From Cyclobacteriaceae bacterium (lineage in GTDB: Bacteria > Bacteroidota > Bacteroidia > Cytophagales > Cyclobacteriaceae): a stretch of DNA of 33,909 bases. Made by a program: the position numbers and the translations under genes. The DNA is taken from NCBI GenBank assembly GCA_018224645.1, contig JAGTVG010000121.1:1-33909 (forward strand), in the 5' to 3' direction. Shown piece after piece: positions 18,062 to 33,006 of this stretch (position 1 is its first letter; each line of letters begins with the position of its first letter). The notes under the pieces are model-generated. The model saw nothing but the letters and a program-made list of their open reading frames with translations. It ran no database searches and was not told the DNA's origin.

Positions 18062-19669
18062 TTGTTTCAGATCAAAAGTCAAATCAATGTAAACGCCCCC
18101 GAATTTAAAAATAAGCAGGCGGAAGTACGTGAGCAGGTGAAAAATTATCACAATATTCTTAAATCCGTGATCGACCGGTCCTCATCCGATGCTGTTAAAA
18201 AACACAGAGACCGGGGCAAGCTCCTCGCGAGGGAAAGAATAAATCTGGTCCTGGACCCGGATACTCCTTTCCTGGAATTATCCCCCCTGGCGGCCTATGG
18301 GATGCATGATAACCAGTTTCCTTCAGCTGGGATCATAACGGGGATTGGCGTGATCTCTGGTCATGAAACAGTGATCGTAGCCAATGATGCCAGTGTAAAG
18401 GGAGGAACCTATATCAGGGAAACCATCAAAAAACATATCAGGGCACAGGAAATTGCCATACAGAATCATCTTCCATGTCTTTACATGGTAGATTCCGGAG
18501 GTGTATTCCTTCCTGAGCAGGCGCGGGTATTTCCGGATAAATATGATTTCGGAAGGTTTTTTTATAACCAGGCAAAATTATCAGCCATGGGTTTATCCCA
18601 GATTTCGATCGTCATGGGTTCTTGCACGGCGGGCGGAGCATACGTACCGGCAATGAGTGATGAAACAATCATTGTCAGGAATCAGGGCACCATTTTTATT
18701 GGAGGACCGCCCCTGGTGAAAGCCGCTACCGGCGAGGTGGTCGATGCAGAAACATTGGGGGGGGCCGAGATCCATACATCAACATCTGGCGTAGCCGATC
18801 ACCTGGCTGAAAACGATCGCCATGCCCTTCAGATTGCCAGGAATATTTTCAGGACCATGCCGGTAAAATCTGGCTTCCACTTTGAGCGGATCAATCCGGA
18901 GGAACCGGCTTATGATCCTGAGGAATTATATGGACTGGTTCCACTGAATCTGAAAATACCTGTTGATGCCAGGGAGATCATTGCAAGGATTGTCGATGGA
19001 AGCAGGTTTCATGAATTCAAGGCTGAATATGCGCCCACCCTGGTGACAGGATTCGCCCACCTGATGGGTTACCCGGTAGGAATACTCGCCAATAATGGCG
19101 TGTTTTTTTCGGAGACATCCCTGAAGGGCGCTCACTTCATTGAATTATGTGCATTCAGGAAAATTCCATTGATCTTTCTGCAGAACATAACCGGTTTTAT
19201 CGTGGGAAAAGAATATGAACATAAGGGGATCGCCAGGGATGGAGCCAAACTCGTTCATGCGGTCGCTAATGTCCAGGTTCCGAAATTCACCGTCATTGCA
19301 GGCGGATCTTTCGGTGCCGGAAATTATGCCATGGCGGGAAGGGCCTACGAACCCAATTTGCTTTTCATGTGGCCAAATGCTAAAATTTCGGTCATGGGGG
19401 GTGAACAGGCTGCCGAAGTGCTGATCACCATCAGGGAAGACAAACTTAATGCCATGGGAAAATCCCTGGGTGATGCTGAACGGAAAAAGATATACGAAGA
19501 AACCATCAGAAAATATGAGGAAGAAGGTTCGGCCTATCATTCTACAGCGCGGCTATGGGATGATGGGATCATCGATCCTGTGGATACACGGAAAATTTTG
19601 GCGATGGGTATCGCCATGTCGCTGAACCGGGAAATCCCTGAACCAAAATTCGGAATTTACCGGATGTAA
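18062..19669 (+). CDS. Acyl-CoA carboxylase carboxyltransferase (beta) subunit, methylcrotonyl-CoA/geranyl-CoA carboxylase type
   Basis: [131 protein letters not shown] start at 18062; in-frame TGA at 18011 and no ATG between. Confidence 0.92.
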
Positions 19670-19686
19670 CAGTTTAAGCAGTTTAT

Positions 19687-20475
19687 ATGAAAGATTTTCA
19701 AACAGTCCTTCTCGAAAAGGAAGGCAATTTTTCAACGATCTGGCTGAACAGGCCTGAGAAAAGAAATGCCTTGAATGAAAAAATGATCGATGAGTTAACT
19801 GAGGCAATCACAAACATCAACCTGGAGAATCAGCAACGGTTGATCATCCTACGGGGGAAAGGGAAGGCATTTTCATCGGGTGCTGACCTGGATATGATGC
19901 GTGATGCGAAGGAAACCGCTCCAGGAGTGAAGATTGGCAAAATAAACCAGCTTCCACGTTGCCTCTCTGTCATTTATCAATCTGAAATTCCGGTAATTGG
20001 CGTGGCGCATGGATCAGTATTTGGCGGAGCCAATGGGATCCTTGCGGCCTGCGATATTGCACTCGCCGGAGCAAACACTGTTTTTGCTTTCAGCGAGGTA
20101 CGCCTCGGCCTTATACCCGCAGCGATTGCCCCTTATGTGATGAAAAGAACCGGGGAGTCCAAGGCCAGGGAATTTATGCTCACCGGTAAAAGATTTATGG
20201 CCCGGGAAGCGGAGATGTCAGGTTTGATCAACAGGTCACTTCCTGAAGATGCCCTTGAGGCCCATCTGGATGATTTGGTACAGGATATTCTGGCAGGGGG
20301 TCCGGAGGCCATCAGCATATGTAAATCGATGATCAGTCAGATTGCAAACGTCTGGGATTTGAATGAATCCCTGATTGAAACCGGAAAACTCATCCTGCAG
20401 GTCAGGGGGTCCGAAGAGGCACAAAGGAGGATGAGCTCATTTTTGAATAAAAAGCAAGGAAATTCAGCGAAATAA
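19687..20475 (+). CDS. Enoyl-CoA hydratase/isomerase family, methylglutaconyl-CoA hydratase (LiuC)-like
   Basis: WLNRPEKRNALNEKMIDELTEAI; LRGKGKAFSSGADLDMM; FGGANGILAACDIALA; FAFSEVRLGLIPAAIAPYVMKRTGE (LiuC-like signature). Confidence 0.88.
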   Translation: MKDFQTVLLEKEGNFSTIWLNRPEKRNALNEKMIDELTEAITNINLENQQRLIILRGKGKAFSSGADLDMMRDAKETAPGVKIGKINQLPRCLSVIYQSEIPVIGVAHGSVFGGANGILAACDIALAGANTVFAFSEVRLGLIPAAIAPYVMKRTGESKAREFMLTGKRFMAREAEMSGLINRSLPEDALEAHLDDLVQDILAGGPEAISICKSMISQIANVWDLNESLIETGKLILQVRGSEEAQRRMSSFLNKKQGNSAK

Positions 20476-20494
20476 AAAGATTAAAACAGGCATT

Positions 20495-22501
20495 TTGGGT
20501 TTATTTAAAAAAATACTGATAGCCAATCGTGGAGAGATCGCTATCAGGATACAGAAAACAGCCAGAAGGCTGGGAATCCATACGGTGGCCATATGTACGC
20601 CTGAGGATGCAGATGATATGTATGTAAGAATGGCGGATGAATCCTGGCAATTGAAGGGGAAAAGCCTTGCCGATACCTACCTGAATATCACCCGGATCAT
20701 TGACCTTGCCATCCGGTCAGGAGCAGAGGCGGTTCATCCCGGTTATGGGTTTCTTTCTGAAAATCCTGAATTTGCGGATGCCTGTGAAAAACATCATATG
20801 GTTTTTATCGGCCCCCCGGGAGAAATGATCCGATTGATGGGAAATAAGATCACCTCCGGAAAATTTGTGGAAAGCCTGGGCGTACCTGTCCCCGAAACGA
20901 TCACGGGAAATAAATCTGAAATCCTCAGCCGCAGACATTCCATCGATTTTCCGGTGCTGGTAAAAGCTGCCGGAGGAGGAGGAGGTAAGGGTATGAGAAT
21001 TGTGGAATCGGCTGAACATCTTGAAACGGCGCTGTTATCCACCGCACGGGAAGCAAAAGCCTATTTTGATAATGAAGAGATATATCTTGAAAAATATATT
21101 GAAAAACCCCGTCATATTGAAGTACAGATCCTGGGAGACCATTACGGGAATGTAATCCACCTGTTTGAAAGGGAATGTTCTGTCCAGAGAAGATATCAGA
21201 AGATCATTGAAGAGACGCCTGCCGTGAAGGTGCCTGAAAAGATACGGGAAAGGATCAGGCACGATGCAGTTACCATCGCCGGCGGGATGCAATACAGGAA
21301 TGCGGGTACCATCGAATTTCTTGTCGACGGGAATTGGGATTATTATTTCCTCGAAATGAATACAAGGCTGCAGGTTGAACATCCGGTTACGGAAATGACC
21401 ACGGGGATTGACCTGGTGGAACAGCAGATAAGGATTGCTTCGGGAGAAAAACTGGGGATATCGCAGGAAAATATACGTCAAACCGGCCATGCGATGGAAT
21501 GCAGGCTCTATGCGGAAGATCCAGCCCGGGATTTTCTGCCTTCGCCGGGCAGGATAACGCTGTACAGGGAGCCGGTATCGGAAAAGATCAGGATGGATTC
21601 AGGCATTTCCGGACCCGGGAATATTTCTCCCAGGTTCGATCCGCTGATCGGAAAGCTGGTCGTCAGGGGAGTGGATAGAAAGGAGGTCCTGGAACAAATG
21701 TCTTCTGCTTTATCTTCCTGCATCATACACGGCGTCACCCATAACATCCCCTTTCTCCAGTCCCTTATCCGGCATCCATTATTCAAGTCCAATGATATCT
21801 CTACCCATTTCTATGAAGAGAATAAGAAAGAAATTCTGGAAAACATGAAACATGAACAGGAAAAATTGGATCCTTTATTGCCGTTGTCCTTTTTTCTGGT
21901 TCATCAGTTGAACACAAGCAGACAAATCAGGCCGGTGAATGTCTGGCAGGAAATTGGTTTCTGGCGTTTGATGATGGAAATACCCGTTAAAAGCCAATCC
22001 GGTGAAATGATTGTCAGCATATTGGGAAACGATAACCAGGGGTTTAAACTGGAGATGGGTGCCAGAGAACTTACTGCCGGTATTATTTCGGCCGTTGATA
22101 ATGATATGACGCTGGAAATTAATGGGAAAACCTTGAGGGCAGTTGTTTCTTCCGGAAATGGTGGAAAGGGATGGGTCTCCTTTGAAGGACAGTTGTTTGA
22201 ATTCAGCCGCCTGGATGTCCTTCCCGGAGAATATATTTTTACGGAAACGGGTTCAGGTGAAAATAGCCATTCGGGGAAGATATTTTCACCCATGCCGGGT
22301 AAGATAGTGGATATACGGATCAGCAGAAACGCTACGGTCAGCAAGGGAGATATTCTTCTGGTCGTTGAGGCCATGAAAATGGAAAACAGCCTTGTCGCAC
22401 CTTTTGACGGACAGGTCAGCGCCGTTCATGCCAGGATGGGGCAATTGATCGGCAACAGGGAATTATTGATGGAATTGGTTCCGTCAGGGAAGGAAAATTA
22501 A
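20495..22501 (+). CDS. Acyl-CoA carboxylase alpha subunit: biotin carboxylase + BCCP
   Basis: GLFKKILIANRGEIAIRIQKTARRLGI; AAGGGGGKGMRIV; FLEMNTRLQVEHPVTEMTTGIDLVEQQIRIASGE; C-terminal VVEAMKMENSLVAPFDGQV biotinylation site. TTG start. Confidence 0.94.
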   Translation: MGLFKKILIANRGEIAIRIQKTARRLGIHTVAICTPEDADDMYVRMADESWQLKGKSLADTYLNITRIIDLAIRSGAEAVHPGYGFLSENPEFADACEKHHMVFIGPPGEMIRLMGNKITSGKFVESLGVPVPETITGNKSEILSRRHSIDFPVLVKAAGGGGGKGMRIVESAEHLETALLSTAREAKAYFDNEEIYLEKYIEKPRHIEVQILGDHYGNVIHLFERECSVQRRYQKIIEETPAVKVPEKIRERIRHDAVTIAGGMQYRNAGTIEFLVDGNWDYYFLEMNTRLQVEHPVTEMTTGIDLVEQQIRIASGEKLGISQENIRQTGHAMECRLYAEDPARDFLPSPGRITLYREPVSEKIRMDSGISGPGNISPRFDPLIGKLVVRGVDRKEVLEQMSSALSSCIIHGVTHNIPFLQSLIRHPLFKSNDISTHFYEENKKEILENMKHEQEKLDPLLPLSFFLVHQLNTSRQIRPVNVWQEIGFWRLMMEIPVKSQSGEMIVSILGNDNQGFKLEMGARELTAGIISAVDNDMTLEINGKTLRAVVSSGNGGKGWVSFEGQLFEFSRLDVLPGEYIFTETGSGENSHSGKIFSPMPGKIVDIRISRNATVSKGDILLVVEAMKMENSLVAPFDGQVSAVHARMGQLIGNRELLMELVPSGKEN

Positions 22502-22502
22502 T

Positions 22503-24326
22503 ATGAAAAAAAGCATCAGGATAGGCAATGCAGGAGGTTTCTGGGGAGATGATCTCCAGGCTTTCAGGAGACAGCTTCTGACAGGAAAGCTTGATTACCT
22601 GACGATGGATTTTCTTGCAGAGATTACCATGAGTATACTCCGCAAACAGCAGATCCGTGATCCGGAGGCGGGATATATCGGGGATTTTGTCGATCAGGTT
22701 GTTGAAAATGCGGAACTCATTGAAAAATCAGGCACGAAGATCCTGACAAATGCCGGCGGGATCAATCCACTTGGCTGTGCCCGGAAAATCATATCAGCAT
22801 TGAAAAAGCAGAACAGGTCGTTGAAACTGGCTGTGGTTGACGGGGATGATCTGATGGCGGTTATTGACCAGTTGTACCCTGGAAAGGCGGATTTTAAAAA
22901 CATGGAAACGGGGGTATCATTTGAAGAGATCAGGCAGCAGATTCAGAGTGCGAACGCCTACATGGGAATAATCCCTCTGCTGAAAGCCCTTCAAACTGAG
23001 GCAAATATCATCATTACAGGCCGTGTGACAGATACATCCATTACTATGGCCCCGATGGTACATGAACTGGGTTGGGAATTAAATGACTGGGATAAACTGG
23101 CCAGCGGTTTAATTGCCGGACATATCATTGAATGCGGGGCTCAGTCTACCGGCGGAAATTTCACCGATTGGAAAACGATAAAAACCTGGACCGACTTCGG
23201 GTATCCCATTGTCGAAATGTATGAAGATGGCAGTTTTGATGTCATCAAAGCCGATAATTCCGGGGGGATCATCAGCAGGGATTCGGTGAAGGAACAGATC
23301 GTCTATGAAATGGGTGATCCATCTGCATATATCAGCCCCGATGTCGTGGCTGATTTTACTGCCATTCAAATTTCAGAAAAGGGTAAGGACCGGGTCAGGA
23401 TTTCCGAAGCAAAAGGGTATCCGCCAACTCATTTTCTGAAAATATCCATGGCATACAAGGATGGATATTCGGCAAGTGGCCATGTGATCATCAGTGGTCC
23501 TGAGGCCATAATAAAGGCGGAAAAGGTCCGGGAAATATTCTGGGACCGCCTTGGTATAAGCTTTGAAAAACAAAATACGGAATTTATCGGATTTAATGCG
23601 GCGCACCTTAATCTGGCTGCTTCGTTGGAACCGAACGAGATCCTGATCCGTTTCAGTGTTTATGACAGGGAGAGGGAAAAGCTGGAAATTTTTTCAAAGA
23701 ACATTGCCCCATTGATCCTGAGCGGACCTCCCGGAATGGCCGTTACGGGTGGCCGACCCAGAATTACACAGGTTTTGACGTATTGGCCGTCATTGATTCA
23801 TAAAAAATGGATAAATCCCAGGTTAATAATTCCTGATGATCAGGGGCATATTAAGGAAGAATATATGCTAAGTTCAGTAACCGGTTTTGAATCGGGACAG
23901 GATTACAGCAGGAGCAGGGTTCAGGAGGCAAAGGACCCTGAAGCATTCAATATATCCGGGGAAACGGAGAATATACGCCTGGCGGATCTATGCCTGGCGC
24001 GGAGTGGAGATAAGGGGGATACCGCCAATCTGGGGGTTCTGGCAAGAAGTAGGGAGATATATGAATTTCTCAAGGAACACCTGACGGCTGGAATTATTAA
24101 AAATATGTTCCGGGGACATTGCCGGGGAAAAGTAATAAGATATGAACTGGATAATCTTCAGGCCTTGAATTTTCTGCTTCATGAAGCATTGGATGAGGGA
24201 GGCACCAGGTCATTACGGATCGATGCGCAGGGTAAAACCTTTGCCCAGGCATTTCTGAATCAAAGGGTCCCGGTACCGGTATCCTTGTCAGCATTGGTTA
24301 CGCAGAATTTATCAAAGAAAGGATAA
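22503..24326 (+). CDS. Acyclic terpene utilization AtuA family protein (DUF1446) with C-terminal AtuA-like domain
   Basis: SIRIGNAGGFWGDDLQAFRRQLLTGKLDYLTMDFLAEITMSIL; TNAGGINPLGCARKI; IITGRVTDTSITMAPM; AGHIIECGAQSTGGNFTDW; C-terminal IRLADLCLARSGDKGDTANLGVLARS. Confidence 0.92.
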   Translation: MKKSIRIGNAGGFWGDDLQAFRRQLLTGKLDYLTMDFLAEITMSILRKQQIRDPEAGYIGDFVDQVVENAELIEKSGTKILTNAGGINPLGCARKIISALKKQNRSLKLAVVDGDDLMAVIDQLYPGKADFKNMETGVSFEEIRQQIQSANAYMGIIPLLKALQTEANIIITGRVTDTSITMAPMVHELGWELNDWDKLASGLIAGHIIECGAQSTGGNFTDWKTIKTWTDFGYPIVEMYEDGSFDVIKADNSGGIISRDSVKEQIVYEMGDPSAYISPDVVADFTAIQISEKGKDRVRISEAKGYPPTHFLKISMAYKDGYSASGHVIISGPEAIIKAEKVREIFWDRLGISFEKQNTEFIGFNAAHLNLAASLEPNEILIRFSVYDREREKLEIFSKNIAPLILSGPPGMAVTGGRPRITQVLTYWPSLIHKKWINPRLIIPDDQGHIKEEYMLSSVTGFESGQDYSRSRVQEAKDPEAFNISGETENIRLADLCLARSGDKGDTANLGVLARSREIYEFLKEHLTAGIIKNMFRGHCRGKVIRYELDNLQALNFLLHEALDEGGTRSLRIDAQGKTFAQAFLNQRVPVPVSLSALVTQNLSKKG

Positions 24327-24334
24327 TTAAGACC

Positions 24335-25480
24335 ATGGATATATTTTGTAATGAGGAACACGATCTTATCCGGCAGACTGTCAGGGATTTTGCAGAGCAG
24401 GAGATCAGGCCGGTTGCACGTGAATTGGATGAAAAGGAAGAATTTTCGGTTTCGCTGACTAAAAAGATGGGGGAAATCGGATTGTTCGGCATGGTGGTGA
24501 ATGAACAATATAACGGGGAAGGATTTGATACCCTGTCATACATCATTGCGGTGGAAGAGCTGGCTCGCATTGACAGTTCGCAGGCAGCTACGGTAGCTGC
24601 ACATAATTCACTGGGGATCGGCCCAATCTATCATTACGGATCGGAAAAACAGAAAAAAAAATACCTGCCCATGCTGACTACCGGGGAATACCTTTGGGGT
24701 TTCGGTCTGACGGAACCCAATGCGGGTTCAGATTCCAGGGCAACGCGGACTTCAGCCAGGTTGGATGGGGATGAATGGGTGATCAATGGGTCAAAAATAT
24801 TCATTACAAATGCCGCAACCTCCATTACCCTGGGCACCACCGTACAGGTCAAGACAAGGGACCGGTCCGGGAGGAAAAACCTATCGGCCATTATTGTTGA
24901 GCAGGACACTCCTGGTTTCAAAGCTGAGGAAATGAAGCATAAAATGATGTGGCGGTCCTCCAATACAGCACAATTGTTTTTTGATCATTGCCGGGTCCCT
25001 GCTGAAAATCTGCTGGGAAAGGTGGGCATGGGATCTGGGATCATGCTCAGTACCCTTGACAGCGGACGGTTATCCATTGCTGCCATGGGACTTGGTCTTG
25101 CCCAGGGAGCCTTTGAAATGGCATTAAAATACGCCGGTCAGAGAAAACAATTCGGCAAGGTTATTGCCAAATTCCAGGGAGTGTCTTTCAAGCTGGCAGA
25201 AATGGCAACAAAGATTGAAGCTGCGAGGAACATGTTGTACAAAGCCTGCTGGCTGAAGGATAAAAAAAGGCCTTTTGCCAGGGAAGCCGCCATGTCAAAA
25301 TTATTTTGTTCCGAAATTGCCAAGGAGGTAGCCGATCATGCGGTGCAGATCCATGGCGGGTATGGATTAATGAAGGAGTATGATATTGAACGGTTTTACC
25401 GGGACCAGCGATTGCTGCAGATTGGTGAAGGCACTTCGGAGATTCAGAAAATAGTAATTATGAGGCACCTGGGTCTTTAG
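24335..25480 (+). CDS. Acyl-CoA dehydrogenase (short-chain/general type by active-site signature)
   Basis: FGLTEPNAGSDSRATRTSARLDGDEWVINGSKIFITNA; YAGQRKQFGKVIAKFQGVSFKLAEMATKIEAARNMLYKAC; HGGYGLMKEYDIERFYRDQRLLQIGEGTSEIQKIVI. Confidence 0.94.
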   Translation: MDIFCNEEHDLIRQTVRDFAEQEIRPVARELDEKEEFSVSLTKKMGEIGLFGMVVNEQYNGEGFDTLSYIIAVEELARIDSSQAATVAAHNSLGIGPIYHYGSEKQKKKYLPMLTTGEYLWGFGLTEPNAGSDSRATRTSARLDGDEWVINGSKIFITNAATSITLGTTVQVKTRDRSGRKNLSAIIVEQDTPGFKAEEMKHKMMWRSSNTAQLFFDHCRVPAENLLGKVGMGSGIMLSTLDSGRLSIAAMGLGLAQGAFEMALKYAGQRKQFGKVIAKFQGVSFKLAEMATKIEAARNMLYKACWLKDKKRPFAREAAMSKLFCSEIAKEVADHAVQIHGGYGLMKEYDIERFYRDQRLLQIGEGTSEIQKIVIMRHLGL

Positions 25481-27218: not shown

Positions 27219-29207
27219 TTATTGATCTTCACCCCCTTTTTTCACAAACATCATCTTTGTGAAAACCAGATGATTACCGCTTCCCCCAGCTTCCTTCATG
27301 AGGGTGACTGAAGGATAATTTTCATTCAGATTTATATCCCCTATATAAAGATCTTCCATTGATTCGACATTTTCTGAATGTGAGCTGATAGTCTCAGAAA
27401 CCCTTTTCTGCCGTTGCCATATGGAAAAATCACATCCTTCGCCGCTCTTCAGGAAACTGATGTACATCCCATATTTCCCCCGGGGGATTTCATCGAGATG
27501 AACAACCATAATGCTGTTCTCATCACCATGAAACATGAATTTACCCCAATCGATACGGCTCACCGCATTATAAAGTCCAACGGTTACCTTCATCAGGTCA
27601 GGCGTTATGATCAGTGTATCGGGTAAATATATTTCCCTCAATTCCTCCCGGGGCTCCATAATTTCTGTTGGCGGATGTTCACCATAATAGAAGGCAATGG
27701 ATGTATAATCGACCGGATACCGGTTCCCTTCAGGTCCGTGTTCGATGGTATGAAGGAAATGCTGCCGATAACTGATTTTATCTGTGAGATAGAACCTGTA
27801 TCCACCGGTTCGGGATAACGGGATGGAATATTCAAGGCAGCCGTGGATGGGCAGACTGAAAGCCCTGTCCCATCGGTTCGGCAGTGCATACCAGCCCCCG
27901 TTAAAATAATCTTCAGAGCCGGTACCATGCAGCCGCAAGGTATGATCGACAAGCGTGGAATCATCACCTTCAAAGAATCTGGTCATTCCGGCACTTAATC
28001 CCCTTGCCTGCAATATGGTTCCGAAATGATGTCCTTTCCCACTGGATTCCTGGAAAATGTATGGTTCTCCTTCCTCCGGGTGTATTATTCTTTTCCATTG
28101 TGTATAAAATTTCCCCTCAAATGCAGGATTCCTTCTCTCCGGAACAAATCCAATGGATGATTTTAATGCTATTGCAGGCTGATCGGCATTTCCCCTTTTT
28201 GCATAAATCAATTCAAATTTTGCACGAGAATCAAAAGGCATCGGTATGAAACAATAATTGATCCCCGATTCACTTCCATGCAGGATACTCCTGGTTGATG
28301 GTTTTCCGAAAGCATAGCCAAAAAAATCTATAACCGGACAGAACACAGCCGGTTGATCTTCATCATCCCACAGGATCTTGATTAAGAGGTCTTTGTTGAT
28401 TTCTACTGAACCTGAGGTAGTTACCAGTTCAAATTTAAGGATTCTTCCGGCTTTCTCAAGGTTCAAAAGGTCTACTGTTTCACCCGGGGAAATCGTAAAT
28501 GATTGAGTTATCGACTCCTGGCCGGTATTGATAGAATCGATGTAGGATTCAATATCCGATCTCCTGCTTTCCCAGAATCTGGCGGCTCTTCTTAAAACTG
28601 TATTTTCGGCTTCATTCAGCTCCATCCGGAAACTTTCAGGACCGGTTGTGCCATTGAATTTTCTGTATTGTATCTGGTGAAAATATAACTGATCTCCGAT
28701 GTAGACGATTTTGCAGGATTGCTGGTAGGGAATGGGTAAATACGAATAATAACCGCCAACTTCATTGCCCACGATAGGTGTGATGAATGGATATTGTTTG
28801 CCACTGAACAAATCGATGAAGCGGATACTGATCCTCGGTTCGGTTTCACCATCAAAATAAAACTGTATGGTATCTTCCGAAGGTGTAGGGGTCCATATTC
28901 TTTCGATCACTCCCGGCCCCTGAAGATCGGCTATGATCAATTTATCACCTTCTTTCCGGATGTATGAATATAAACCGGAAAATCCATCATTGTTACCTCC
29001 GGTTGTATCGTAACTTGAGACCTGCTCGACGGTTGTATTATCCCTGTATTGCGGAAGAAGATCTAACCGGTAAAGATATTCAAGTTCATCCGAGAATGAA
29101 TATACGCTGTGTAGCGAAACCGTCCTGATAAGAACGGCATCATCCTCCCGGCAACTGATTAAAAAAGCAAGAACCAGGAAAAAGTAAAAAAAACGATTGA
29201 TTTTCAT
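27219..29207 (-). CDS. DUF2961 (GH172-like) lipoprotein
   Basis: FLVLAFLISCRED lipobox; LIIADLQGPGVIERIWTPTPSEDTIQFYFDGETEPRISI; LRLHGTGSEDYFNGGWYALPNRWDRAFSLPIHGCLEY (hallmark GTGSEDYFN..WY). Confidence 0.9.
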   Translation of the reverse strand: MKINRFFYFFLVLAFLISCREDDAVLIRTVSLHSVYSFSDELEYLYRLDLLPQYRDNTTVEQVSSYDTTGGNNDGFSGLYSYIRKEGDKLIIADLQGPGVIERIWTPTPSEDTIQFYFDGETEPRISIRFIDLFSGKQYPFITPIVGNEVGGYYSYLPIPYQQSCKIVYIGDQLYFHQIQYRKFNGTTGPESFRMELNEAENTVLRRAARFWESRRSDIESYIDSINTGQESITQSFTISPGETVDLLNLEKAGRILKFELVTTSGSVEINKDLLIKILWDDEDQPAVFCPVIDFFGYAFGKPSTRSILHGSESGINYCFIPMPFDSRAKFELIYAKRGNADQPAIALKSSIGFVPERRNPAFEGKFYTQWKRIIHPEEGEPYIFQESSGKGHHFGTILQARGLSAGMTRFFEGDDSTLVDHTLRLHGTGSEDYFNGGWYALPNRWDRAFSLPIHGCLEYSIPLSRTGGYRFYLTDKISYRQHFLHTIEHGPEGNRYPVDYTSIAFYYGEHPPTEIMEPREELREIYLPDTLIITPDLMKVTVGLYNAVSRIDWGKFMFHGDENSIMVVHLDEIPRGKYGMYISFLKSGEGCDFSIWQRQKRVSETISSHSENVESMEDLYIGDINLNENYPSVTLMKEAGGSGNHLVFTKMMFVKKGGEDQ

Positions 29208-29560: not shown

Positions 29561-29657
29561 GTTGACATCGATTATTACAGGGGATCTGCCGGCCGTCAAC
29601 TATATCTCATGGATATATCGGAAGTAATCCGGAAAATTCCTCATTTCAGGTTCCACG

Positions 29658-29747
29658 GTCTAACCAGGCACCGTGGTCAGACCATGATCCCTCGTCAGAC
29701 CACGACCCTTCATCAGGCCACGGCCCTTTGTCAGACCACGGACCAGT
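29658..29747. repeat. Degenerate tandem repeat, 18-bp unit x 5
   Basis: gtctaaccaggcaccgtg / gtcagaccatgatccctc / gtcagaccacgacccttc / atcaggccacggcccttt / gtcagaccacggaccagt; ends 1 bp from the DUF2807 stop codon (29749-29751). Confidence 0.85.
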
Positions 29748-29748
29748 A

Positions 29749-30462
29749 TCAATTGATCTTAACGATCTTACCCACGCCGGTATGATTCACGGTCATCGAA
29801 GGACTGCCCATGTATCTGATATCCCCAACACCGCTGAGGTTGATTTTCAATTCATCGGTAACATTGATATCAATATTGCCCGTTCCTGATAAATTCAGAT
29901 CCCCATCCCTGCCTGTCAATTCAAATAATCTCAAATTGCCAACACCGGAGTGCTCCGCAATAATATCATCGGCCGTTCCTTTAACTTCCACATCGCCTAC
30001 CTCATCAAGGTCAAAATACACACGCTGGACATCAATATCGGAAAGGTAGATGTTTCCCACACCATCCTGAACCACCCTGAGTTCATTAACGGCCAGTAAA
30101 TCATTACTTCGGATGATTGCCACCCCATCCAGCCTGATCAGCGTAAATTCCGGTGCATAAACATCAAATTCGAGTTGATCGATCTCCTTGTGCTTGCCGG
30201 TAAGCTTTATGTAAAGTTCCTCATCAGAGATGGATAGAATGATGTCGTCGAGTACATTGGCATTGGTGTTTATCATTACCCTGTATTCCTGGGCGATATG
30301 CAGATTGACCTTTCCGATAGTCTCCACATGAACGCCATCAAAGGCTGATAATACCCTCTCCTCTGTTGCCAGGGGGCCTGGTTCCTCTCCAACTGTACAG
30401 GATAAGAACAATATGGTCAGAATGGATGAAAGAATTGCTGTTGTTTTGAGTCCTTGATTCAT
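29749..30462 (-). CDS. DUF2807 (head GIN domain) lipoprotein
   Basis: MNQGLKTTAILSSILTILFLSCTVGEEPG lipobox; FDGVHVETIGKVNLHIAQEYRVMINTNANVLDDIILSISDEELYIKL; repeated (S/D)GVGNI, SGTGNI, SGVGDI beta-helix-like turns. The ORF track start at 30489 adds 9 residues. Confidence 0.88.
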   Translation of the reverse strand: MNQGLKTTAILSSILTILFLSCTVGEEPGPLATEERVLSAFDGVHVETIGKVNLHIAQEYRVMINTNANVLDDIILSISDEELYIKLTGKHKEIDQLEFDVYAPEFTLIRLDGVAIIRSNDLLAVNELRVVQDGVGNIYLSDIDVQRVYFDLDEVGDVEVKGTADDIIAEHSGVGNLRLFELTGRDGDLNLSGTGNIDINVTDELKINLSGVGDIRYMGSPSMTVNHTGVGKIVKIN

Positions 30463-30659
30463 TGTTTTTATAAGTTTAATTAACACCATTTACGGATATT
30501 TATTGGGTAAGTTTGTTAAAGAGACAATCATCTTGCCTCAGACCCGTACCCTAAATTTCAATTTTTTTAAAAATTTCAAGTCAGGGAATTATCCGGTTAA
30601 AAATTATTTTCATTTAAATTTTTTTTAAATTACGGAATCATTTTTTGAGGATATGCTGG

Positions 30660-32048
30660 ATGTATAAACGTTTATTGCTTCTTTTAGGCTGCCTGGTTAT
30701 TTTTTATTTCATGTTACCGGCTGTTGTCCTTTCCCGGGATTCTCTATCAATGGAGAGAGTAACAAACAAAAATAAGGTGATTCAACCAAAGGAAGGTTGG
30801 ACATTCGGGATCCTTCCGGCAATATCCTTCGATACCGATGTCGGATTCCAGTATGGAGCCCTGGCCAACCTGTATTATTATGGTGATGGTTCGAAATATC
30901 CGGAATACCTTCAAAGTCTTTACCTGGAATGGTCGCAGACCACCCGCGGAAGTGGAATTGCCAGATTTTATTATGATTCAAAATACCTCATTCCCGGGAT
31001 CAGACTGACGGCTGATATCAGCTACCTGACGGAAAAAGCCATGCAATTTTATGGATTTAACGGGTATGATGCAGTTTACCATTCGGAATGGGAGGACGAT
31101 ACAGATCCAGGGTATGTCTCGAGGGTCTTTTTCAGGCATGATCGTAAGATATTCAGGATAATGGCCAATTTTCAGGGAAATATCATAAAAGAAGATAACA
31201 GGTTCCGGTGGATCACCGGTTTTGCTTATTATAATAATTCCATCGGGCCGGTGGACATCGATCGCCTGAACAAAGGAAAAAGTGAGGATGAAAAGTTACC
31301 GGCTGTGGATGGGCTGTACGATAAATATGTGGAATGGGATGTCATTACTGATGAAGAAAAGGACGGTACTGTTACCACCTATCTGAAGGCGGGACTGATC
31401 TACGATACCCGGGATTTTGAAGCCCTGCCCTTCAAGGGGATCTGGTCGGAGGCCGTCATCTCCTATTCGCCTTCCTTCCTGGGGGATGATCGTTTTTCCT
31501 ATTCAAAACTTACCCTTATCCATCGCCAATATTTTACCCTCGTGCCCGGAATCATGTCATTCGCTTACCGGGTGGGCTACCAGGGCACCCTGACTGGAAC
31601 TGTTCCCTTTCATATGCAGCCCCATATCGTTCCGACGTTCCTGACAGGGGCTACCTCCCAGGGGTTGGGAGGTTCAAGGACCCTGCGGGGAGTTCTGAGG
31701 AACAGGGTGGTAGGAGATGGAATTGTTCTGGGAAACCTTGAGTTGAGATTAATTTTCTACCGGACAGTGATTTTTAACCAGAATCTCTATATCGGCACCA
31801 ACCTGTTTTTCGATGCTGGACGTGTAGTGGATGAAATGGATATTGATTTTTCAGGGGCAGAAGAAGAACTGGGAGAAGATTTTCCCATGTACTTTAATCC
31901 GGGTGCTGAGTCGGTACACATGAGTTCCGGTATTGGTTTAAAAGTCGGGTTAAATGAAAATTTTATCGTAAGCCTGGATTTTGGAAAAGCCTTTGACCGA
32001 CAGGATGGGAATACCGGTTTTTACATCAACCTGAATTATCTTTTTTGA
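30660..32048 (+). CDS. BamA/TamA-like (Omp85 superfamily, bacterial surface antigen) outer-membrane barrel
   Basis: Signal sequence MYKRLLLLLGCLVIFYFMLPAVVLS; AISFDTDVGFQYGALANLYYYGDGSKYPEYLQSLYLEWSQTTRGSG; YDTRDFEALPFKGIWSEAVISYSPSFLGDD; GGSRTLRGVLRNRVVGDGIVLGNLELRL (RG motif); ends in aromatic YLF. First ATG of the frame is 30660 (the listed 30645 start is TTG). Confidence 0.85.
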   Translation: MYKRLLLLLGCLVIFYFMLPAVVLSRDSLSMERVTNKNKVIQPKEGWTFGILPAISFDTDVGFQYGALANLYYYGDGSKYPEYLQSLYLEWSQTTRGSGIARFYYDSKYLIPGIRLTADISYLTEKAMQFYGFNGYDAVYHSEWEDDTDPGYVSRVFFRHDRKIFRIMANFQGNIIKEDNRFRWITGFAYYNNSIGPVDIDRLNKGKSEDEKLPAVDGLYDKYVEWDVITDEEKDGTVTTYLKAGLIYDTRDFEALPFKGIWSEAVISYSPSFLGDDRFSYSKLTLIHRQYFTLVPGIMSFAYRVGYQGTLTGTVPFHMQPHIVPTFLTGATSQGLGGSRTLRGVLRNRVVGDGIVLGNLELRLIFYRTVIFNQNLYIGTNLFFDAGRVVDEMDIDFSGAEEELGEDFPMYFNPGAESVHMSSGIGLKVGLNENFIVSLDFGKAFDRQDGNTGFYINLNYLF

Positions 32049-32058
32049 AAATACCATT

Positions 32059-32952
32059 ATGAAAACACCTACCAGAAGATCATTTGTTAAAACAGGTTTG
32101 GCCGGCATAGCCGCGATCCCCCTTTATCATATGTTTGGTTGTACACAGGGTACAGCGAAACTTCCTCACATCGGACTTCAGATGTATACGGTCAGGGATG
32201 AAATCGAAAAAGACATTAAAAAAACCCTGGCTAAAGTAGCGGATATGGGTTTGGCGGGAGTTGAGTCCGCTTTCCTGCCGGAAGGAATAAGTATCGAAGA
32301 AGCAGGAAAACTTTTTAAGGAATACGGACTGCATGTTTTTGCAGCCCATGTTGAGTTGCCTGTCAGTCAGGCTTCAAAGGATGAAATGCTGAGAATCGCC
32401 GACGCCTATCAATGCAAAAGGATGATATGGCATGGCTGGCCTGAGGATAAAAGGTATAAAACGGAAAGTGGAACCCTGGAGCTGGTTGAAATATACAATG
32501 AAGCCAACAGATTTGCCAGATCCAACGGTTTGAGCTTCGGTGTTCATAACCATTGGTGGGAGTATGAAAAACAGGCTTCCGGTCAATATCCTTTTGAAAT
32601 TTTATTAAGGGAACTGGATAACGAAATTTTTTTTGAGATCGACACCTATTGGGTAACTGTGGCTGGCCATGAGGCGGCAGAAATCATCAGGAAATTTGGC
32701 GAGAGGGCTCCGTTGATCCATATCAAGGACGGACCTGCCACTTACAGCGATTCCCTCGATGCCGATGACCCTGATCCCATGGTCCCCCTGGGAAAAGGTT
32801 CAGTCAATATTCCTGCCATTGCTGCTGCGGCGAGGAATTCAGCGGATTGGATGATTGTGGAACTGGATGTCGTCAGGACGGATGTATTTGAAGCCATCAA
32901 GGACAGTTATGACTATATGATTTCCAACCAATATGCAAATAGCCGATCCTGA
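32059..32952 (+). CDS. Sugar phosphate isomerase/epimerase-like protein with Tat + lipobox leader
   Basis: TRRSFVKTGLAGIAAIPLYHMFGC; LPHIGLQMYTVRDEIEKDIKKTLAKVADMGLAGVESA; LSFGVHNHWWEYE; IFFEIDTYWVTVAGHEAAEIIRKFGERAPLIHIKDG. Confidence 0.9.
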   Translation: MKTPTRRSFVKTGLAGIAAIPLYHMFGCTQGTAKLPHIGLQMYTVRDEIEKDIKKTLAKVADMGLAGVESAFLPEGISIEEAGKLFKEYGLHVFAAHVELPVSQASKDEMLRIADAYQCKRMIWHGWPEDKRYKTESGTLELVEIYNEANRFARSNGLSFGVHNHWWEYEKQASGQYPFEILLRELDNEIFFEIDTYWVTVAGHEAAEIIRKFGERAPLIHIKDGPATYSDSLDADDPDPMVPLGKGSVNIPAIAAAARNSADWMIVELDVVRTDVFEAIKDSYDYMISNQYANSRS

Positions 32953-32970
32953 TAATCCGGGATCATTTTA

Positions 32971-33006
32971 TGAGTTAACCGCAGTTAATGAGCAGACCGT
33001 GGTTAA
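32971..33006. repeat. Two 18-bp repeat units related to the 29658-29747 array
   Basis: TGAGTTAACCGCAGTTAA (32971-32988) / TGAGCAGACCGTGGTTAA (32989-33006), 13/18 identical by eye; shares the CAGACC(R)(Y)GG core with the first array. Confidence 0.6.

Follow-up and report, generated by a model that had tools for sequence, protein, structure and literature searches.

Tandem arrays of an 18-bp GTCWGAC palindrome in a Cyclobacteriaceae genome and their likeness to REP elements linked to Y1 transposases

The window analyzed here, a stretch of 33,909 bp corresponding to contig C121 of a 4.69-Mb draft genome (561 contigs; 88% complete), contains a short run of 18-bp repeats just beyond the stop codon of a DUF2807 gene. 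This raises the question of what kind of element the repeats are, and whether their place beside a stop codon is part of their character. The five-unit array recognized in the initial annotation is present, occupies 29653–29742 (array 1; Table 1), and has two degenerate units, the first and the fourth; in the GTCWGAC frame the cores start at 29658 (GTCTAAC, degenerate), 29676, 29694, 29712 (ATCAGGC, degenerate) and 29730. TRF gives a period of 18, and a profile derived from the genome's remaining arrays gives the whole array 7–24 bits; four of its five units score 14–24 bits, far above the rest of the window, where the best non-array site has 9.4 bits. GGTCTG lies 11 nt after the DUF2807 stop (29749–29751, minus strand), as previously stated. 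Elsewhere in the window (18062–25480, plus strand), carboxyltransferase, biotin carboxylase, AtuA-like and acyl-CoA dehydrogenase genes are consecutive, in a row resembling a leucine/terpene-type acyl-CoA degradation cluster.

Table 1. Repeat units of array 1, its neighbouring genes and the claimed second array (window coordinates; scores from the profile of the genome's other arrays)
Feature	Coordinates	Strand	Remarks
Unit 1, CCACGGTCTAACCAGGCA, degenerate	29653–29670	.	Core GTCTAAC; profile score 7.5
Unit 2, CCGTGGTCAGACCATGAT, perfect TSGTCWGACSA palindrome	29671–29688	.	Score 20.6–22.6
Unit 3, CCCTCGTCAGACCACGAC, perfect core	29689–29706	.	Score 24.3, top score of the window
Unit 4, CCTTCATCAGGCCACGGC, two core changes	29707–29724	.	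Score 14.1–14.6
Unit 5, CCTTTGTCAGACCACGGA, one core change	29725–29742	.	Score 18.4–20.7
DUF2807 (PF10988) gene, neighbour outside the repeat	29749–30489	-	Stop 7 bp from unit 5
DUF2961 (PF11175) gene, neighbour on the other side of array 1	27219–29207	-	Start 445 bp from the array
Claimed second array, not a member of the family	32971–33006	.	Chance similarity; profile score -3.97

A second array of two units had been claimed 3' of a 48-aa ORF (which may not be a gene), but its similarity to array 1 is due to chance. Scored against background, a comparison named in the initial annotation as able to refute the claim, it is indistinguishable from shuffled windows, its best profile score ranking 205 in the window with about 196 equal or better matches per shuffled window, and on this ground it is ruled out as a family member. 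Its two 18-mers are identical at 13 of 18 positions, a degree of similarity that 56 positions of the window attain; it is without the GTCWGAC palindrome, the defining feature of the family; and its match to CAGACCRYGG depends on the degenerate core drawn up in the initial annotation itself.

As was originally supposed, array 1 belongs to a dispersed repeat family and is no random microsatellite. BLAST and pattern searches place the unit on many contigs of this genome, and from the fetched contigs we collected 29 arrays at 28 loci (the arrays on C406 and C526 being one locus), with 98 units and 2–6 units per array. The unit consensus is CCGTSGTCWGACSACGG plus 1 bp, an odd palindrome, and 74 of the 98 units match TSGTCWGACSA perfectly. 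A pattern search of the genome with GTCWGAC-N11-GTCWGAC returns 48 exact pairs versus none for the reversed control, and 69 matches versus one when up to one mismatch is allowed; the W centre is invariant in the exact pairs, with 48 matches whether W or N is specified. Successive cores are spaced by exactly 18 bp in about 90% of cases, indels being few, and the array ends are sharp, with no half-decayed units alongside. Between adjacent units, differences within the core occur in 1–4% of cases at the inner T, C, G and A, in 10–14% at the central W and at the outer G and C, and in 35–43% at the S positions, and the outer spacer positions differ in 33–65%; unit detection demands near-matches to the core and core conservation is therefore somewhat overstated by these figures, the genome-wide pattern search agreeing in direction. 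As for REPs, the element is a short palindrome dispersed between genes, 23 of the 28 loci not overlapping any ORF of 100 aa or longer and the loci having no fixed context. The unit consensus lacks the GTAG/GGAG-type tag that proteobacterial classes have at the stem foot, as do the repeats of TnpAY1 subclass 2.6 (PMC6006769).

Several observations bear on the turnover and spread of the units. Spacer identity is 8.15 of 11 positions at lag 2, 6.85 of 11 at lag 1, and 5.6 of 11 between arrays; identical spacer pairs are shared between different loci eight times, versus 1.2 expected (maximum of 5 in 200 simulations), and a 34-bp stretch occurs twice on contig C192, inverted, 2.7 kb apart and with unrelated flanks. 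Two pairs of contig ends (C406/C526 and C120/C434) represent one locus each with differing units, which we read as strain variation in unit number, assembly error being possible. A pattern search of the same-genus genome G001 gave no copy of the two-core unit, as expected of a mobile element and not of a conserved host element; in a comparison with G001 aimed at an empty site, DNA identity is about 67%, and the homologues of the DUF2961 gene and of the Omp85/DUF2807 genes are on different contigs.

The same core at the same spacing flanks Y1 genes in relatives. Two-core matches were found in nine of 58 other genomes in a search of relatives and in 22 of 292 other genomes drawn from the order, some of these being single and chance-like and many being hairpins with genome-specific arms and 18-bp spacing. 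The arms of the relatives' hairpins do pair, and those in G025 and G168 carry GTGGTCWGACCAC arms, like this genome's. GTCWGAC hairpins are located on both sides of an intact 197-aa Y1 gene in G017 and on both sides of a Y1 remnant in G032, and G259 has an intact Y1 gene with two hairpin copies upstream and one downstream; in G117 an intact Y1 gene is flanked by a GTCCGAC variant whose arms are those of the GTCAGAC hairpins of that genome. A scan of PF01797 and NF047646 genes in seven to eight genomes found GTCWGAC hairpin flanks at the G017 gene only. G313 has 67 GTCWGAC hairpins, some of them REPIN-like inverted doublets 63 bp apart, and a weak Y1 match only. Protein P0001 carries the NHFH and YIHQNP motifs given for TnpAY1 subclass 2.6 (PMC6006769) and at the level of motifs appears to resemble this subclass, which is mostly found in Bacteroidetes and has atypical flanking structures (Quentin et al. 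2018, PMC6006769). In G032 we also note two hairpins and a partial tandem copy inside a 613-codon open frame (L098:8958–9555), where the repeat may be translated.

We favour, with moderate confidence, the explanation that a palindrome family, REP-like and Y1-linked, is present here as a tandem variant, dispersed between genes and descended from REP hairpins. The ancestral element would have been, as in the relatives, a two-armed hairpin of roughly 33 bp whose GTCWGAC cores are spaced 18 bp; it would have been of the kind linked to Y1 single-strand transposases (TnpA-REP/RAYT) and would have been copied into further intergenic positions. Here, this two-armed hairpin would then have multiplied into short head-to-tail arrays with a strict 18-bp period and a changing number of units. 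The arrays would have grown either through slippage or through new units inserting at existing cores, and would have been dispersed by a RAYT that is now unseen.

The claim is one of descent from REPs and likeness to them; strict membership fails both on arm pairing and on a neighbouring Y1 gene. The fetched DNA surrounding the arrays of this genome contains no Y1 gene or remnant at any locus, and no Y1 gene flanked by the GTCWGAC repeat was found in the genome, which is 88% complete, so that the partner gene may be missing. The only RAYT-like gene found here, on contig C113, was rejected as the partner of the arrays because the palindrome flanking it differs from the array unit and has 12 copies of its own. 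Each unit alone is a short palindrome, but the complementary arms of a REP stem-loop are not seen, adjacent arms pairing at 0.44 versus 0.53 for randomly combined halves, and the S positions have no covariation. Single-strand folding of seven arrays gave some strongly above shuffles and two not above them at all. Arm pairing below random together with two arrays devoid of excess stability indicates that the REP hairpin is not maintained, and an RNA or ssDNA hairpin was discarded as the conserved feature of the arrays, given arms without covariation and two folded arrays no better than shuffles. Also counting against REP descent, conservation of the core far exceeds that of the spacers, a contrast larger than expected from the neutral decay of a dead mobile element.

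As arm pairing is no better than random and the RAYT-like gene of this genome is accompanied by a palindrome of another sequence, the reading of the arrays as protein-binding arrays is a live, if rather unlikely, rival. Here the arrays would be a binding platform for a sequence-specific, probably dimeric DNA-binding protein reading an 11–17 bp palindrome, with the 18-bp phase letting adjacent dimers touch, as in operator, nucleoid or partition-like arrays. The contrast between core positions, most of which differ in 1–14% of neighbouring units, and outer spacers is as such a platform predicts, as are the near-constant 18-bp distances, the sharp array ends, and the retention of the single-unit palindrome while inter-arm pairing is not kept; yet the platform has no copy in same-genus G001 and no common gene context, the sharing of units between loci and their changing number would be unusual for a regulon, and the same core forms transposase-flanking hairpins in relatives. 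Invariant cores in exact 18-bp register, with spacers turning over almost freely, might tentatively be attributed to core-targeted insertion of units by a single-strand transposase, or to a cooperative DNA-binding array that spread as a mobile element and was put to use by the host.

It is very improbable that the arrays are 3'-UTR elements following stop codons (a terminator, mRNA-stability or protein-binding array), as first proposed, and this reading is largely refuted by position. Where both neighbours are visible (22 arrays), ten arrays are between tandem genes, six between convergent genes and six between divergent genes, a split that matches the intergenic background (chi-square P = 0.56; gene calls are mechanical, using the longest ORFs, and small shifts are possible), and we found no common gene context across the arrays. 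A facing stop lies no more than 20 bp away at six of the 28 loci versus 2.1 simulated (P about 0.012), and array 1, folded as its minus strand, is more stable than shuffled sequence (z -3.15, DNA parameters), but the other 22 loci are farther from a stop, six arrays with visible neighbours separate divergent genes, two of the folded arrays have no fold potential, and the second array that had completed the pattern is a product of chance. Stop-codon adjacency is a mild tendency of a minority of loci, not a defining property; a bias toward stop-codon proximity is known for ordinary REPs (PMC3733652). With arrays in every gene arrangement, and in proportions matching the background, a stop-codon element is ruled out as the rule, removing a false lead. 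For the alternative put forward in the initial annotation, a stop-codon-associated mobile repeat, the mobile part fits and the stop-codon part does not, as tandem, convergent and divergent positions are all occupied. The shared orientation of units noted there has little meaning, since the unit is palindromic with W at its centre.

Plain minisatellites of independent origin by replication slippage, with no mobile source, would account for the tandem arrangement, the unit numbers differing between contigs and the higher spacer identity within arrays at lags 1 and 2, but are most unlikely, as the recurrence of one 18-bp palindromic core in some 30 unrelated places contradicts independent origin, exact units are common to different loci, and similar hairpins are scattered in other genera.

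Compared with known systems, the favoured REP-like family is closest in type to the REPs of TnpAY1 subclass 2.6 (PMC6006769), with which it shares dispersed intergenic palindromes and, in relatives, Y1 genes (NHFH, YIHQNP) flanked by the same core at 18-bp spacing; it departs from them in its tandem arrays of 2–6 units, with arms not complementary above random and no adjoining Y1 gene found. REPINs and BIMEs of proteobacteria (PMC3116915, PMC2817692) are likewise clusters of short palindromes between genes, and the inverted doublets of G313 are similar, whereas the arrays here are without a GTAG tag and have a fixed 18-bp head-to-tail period instead of alternating hairpins. The TIR families of TIRYT genes (Di Nocera et al. 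2013, PMC3733652) are also linked to Y1 genes, are sometimes self-complementary, and occur as singles, dimers and groups, although their GGGGWSAS motif appears to differ from the unit here. In searches for a GTCTGAC/GTCAGAC or GTCCGAC/GTCGGAC repeat, there was no paper on a GTCWGAC repeat among the literature matches listed.

A three-core pattern run over GTDB representatives returned mostly 9-bp arrays or other 18-bp repeats among the matches listed. The 9-bp GTCNGACNN arrays of other phyla share a palindromic GTCNGAC core, a fixed phase and variable spacer bases with the arrays here, but have a period of 9 and occur in other taxa: among the matches listed these are Lentisphaerae, Verrucomicrobia, Muribaculaceae, a Planctomycetaceae and other bins, and those at L170, L174, L178, L186, L198, L205 and others have an invariant palindromic core and a variable two-base spacer. 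Arrays of an 18-bp GGGGTCWGACCCC-like unit, with core and period as here, are present among the same matches at L224, L233 and L244 (Deltaproteobacteria M1803, another phylum), and also at L269 and L281. CRISPR arrays consist of identical repeats of 23–50 bp with long unique spacers and cas genes; the 18-bp period here leaves 7–11 nt between cores.

The conserved GTCWGAC palindrome, which in several Bacteroidota-like genera occurs as a single hairpin next to RAYT-like genes, is thereby connected with a tandem-array form having fixed spacing and free spacers. If descent from REPs is true, it would reveal a route from REP hairpins to phase-locked arrays, and single hairpin, inverted doublet and array would form a natural set for asking what a transposase or host protein reads.

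The RAYT-like gene on C113 (G000:C113:4680–5216; L146, L313) has a perfect hairpin, ACTCGTACTACGACTTAAGTCGTAGTACGAGT, just upstream, and the 28-bp centre of this hairpin has its 12 copies on other contigs of the genome with zero mismatches, suggesting recent spread. Beside some hairpins of this type, the ACGAGT end motif is tandemly repeated together with local flanking bases (5.3 copies of 13 bp, 5.1 copies of 14 bp and about two copies of 12 bp; L444:2547–2612, L447:2599–2664, and also L441 and L442), as if the hairpin end seeds tandem duplication.
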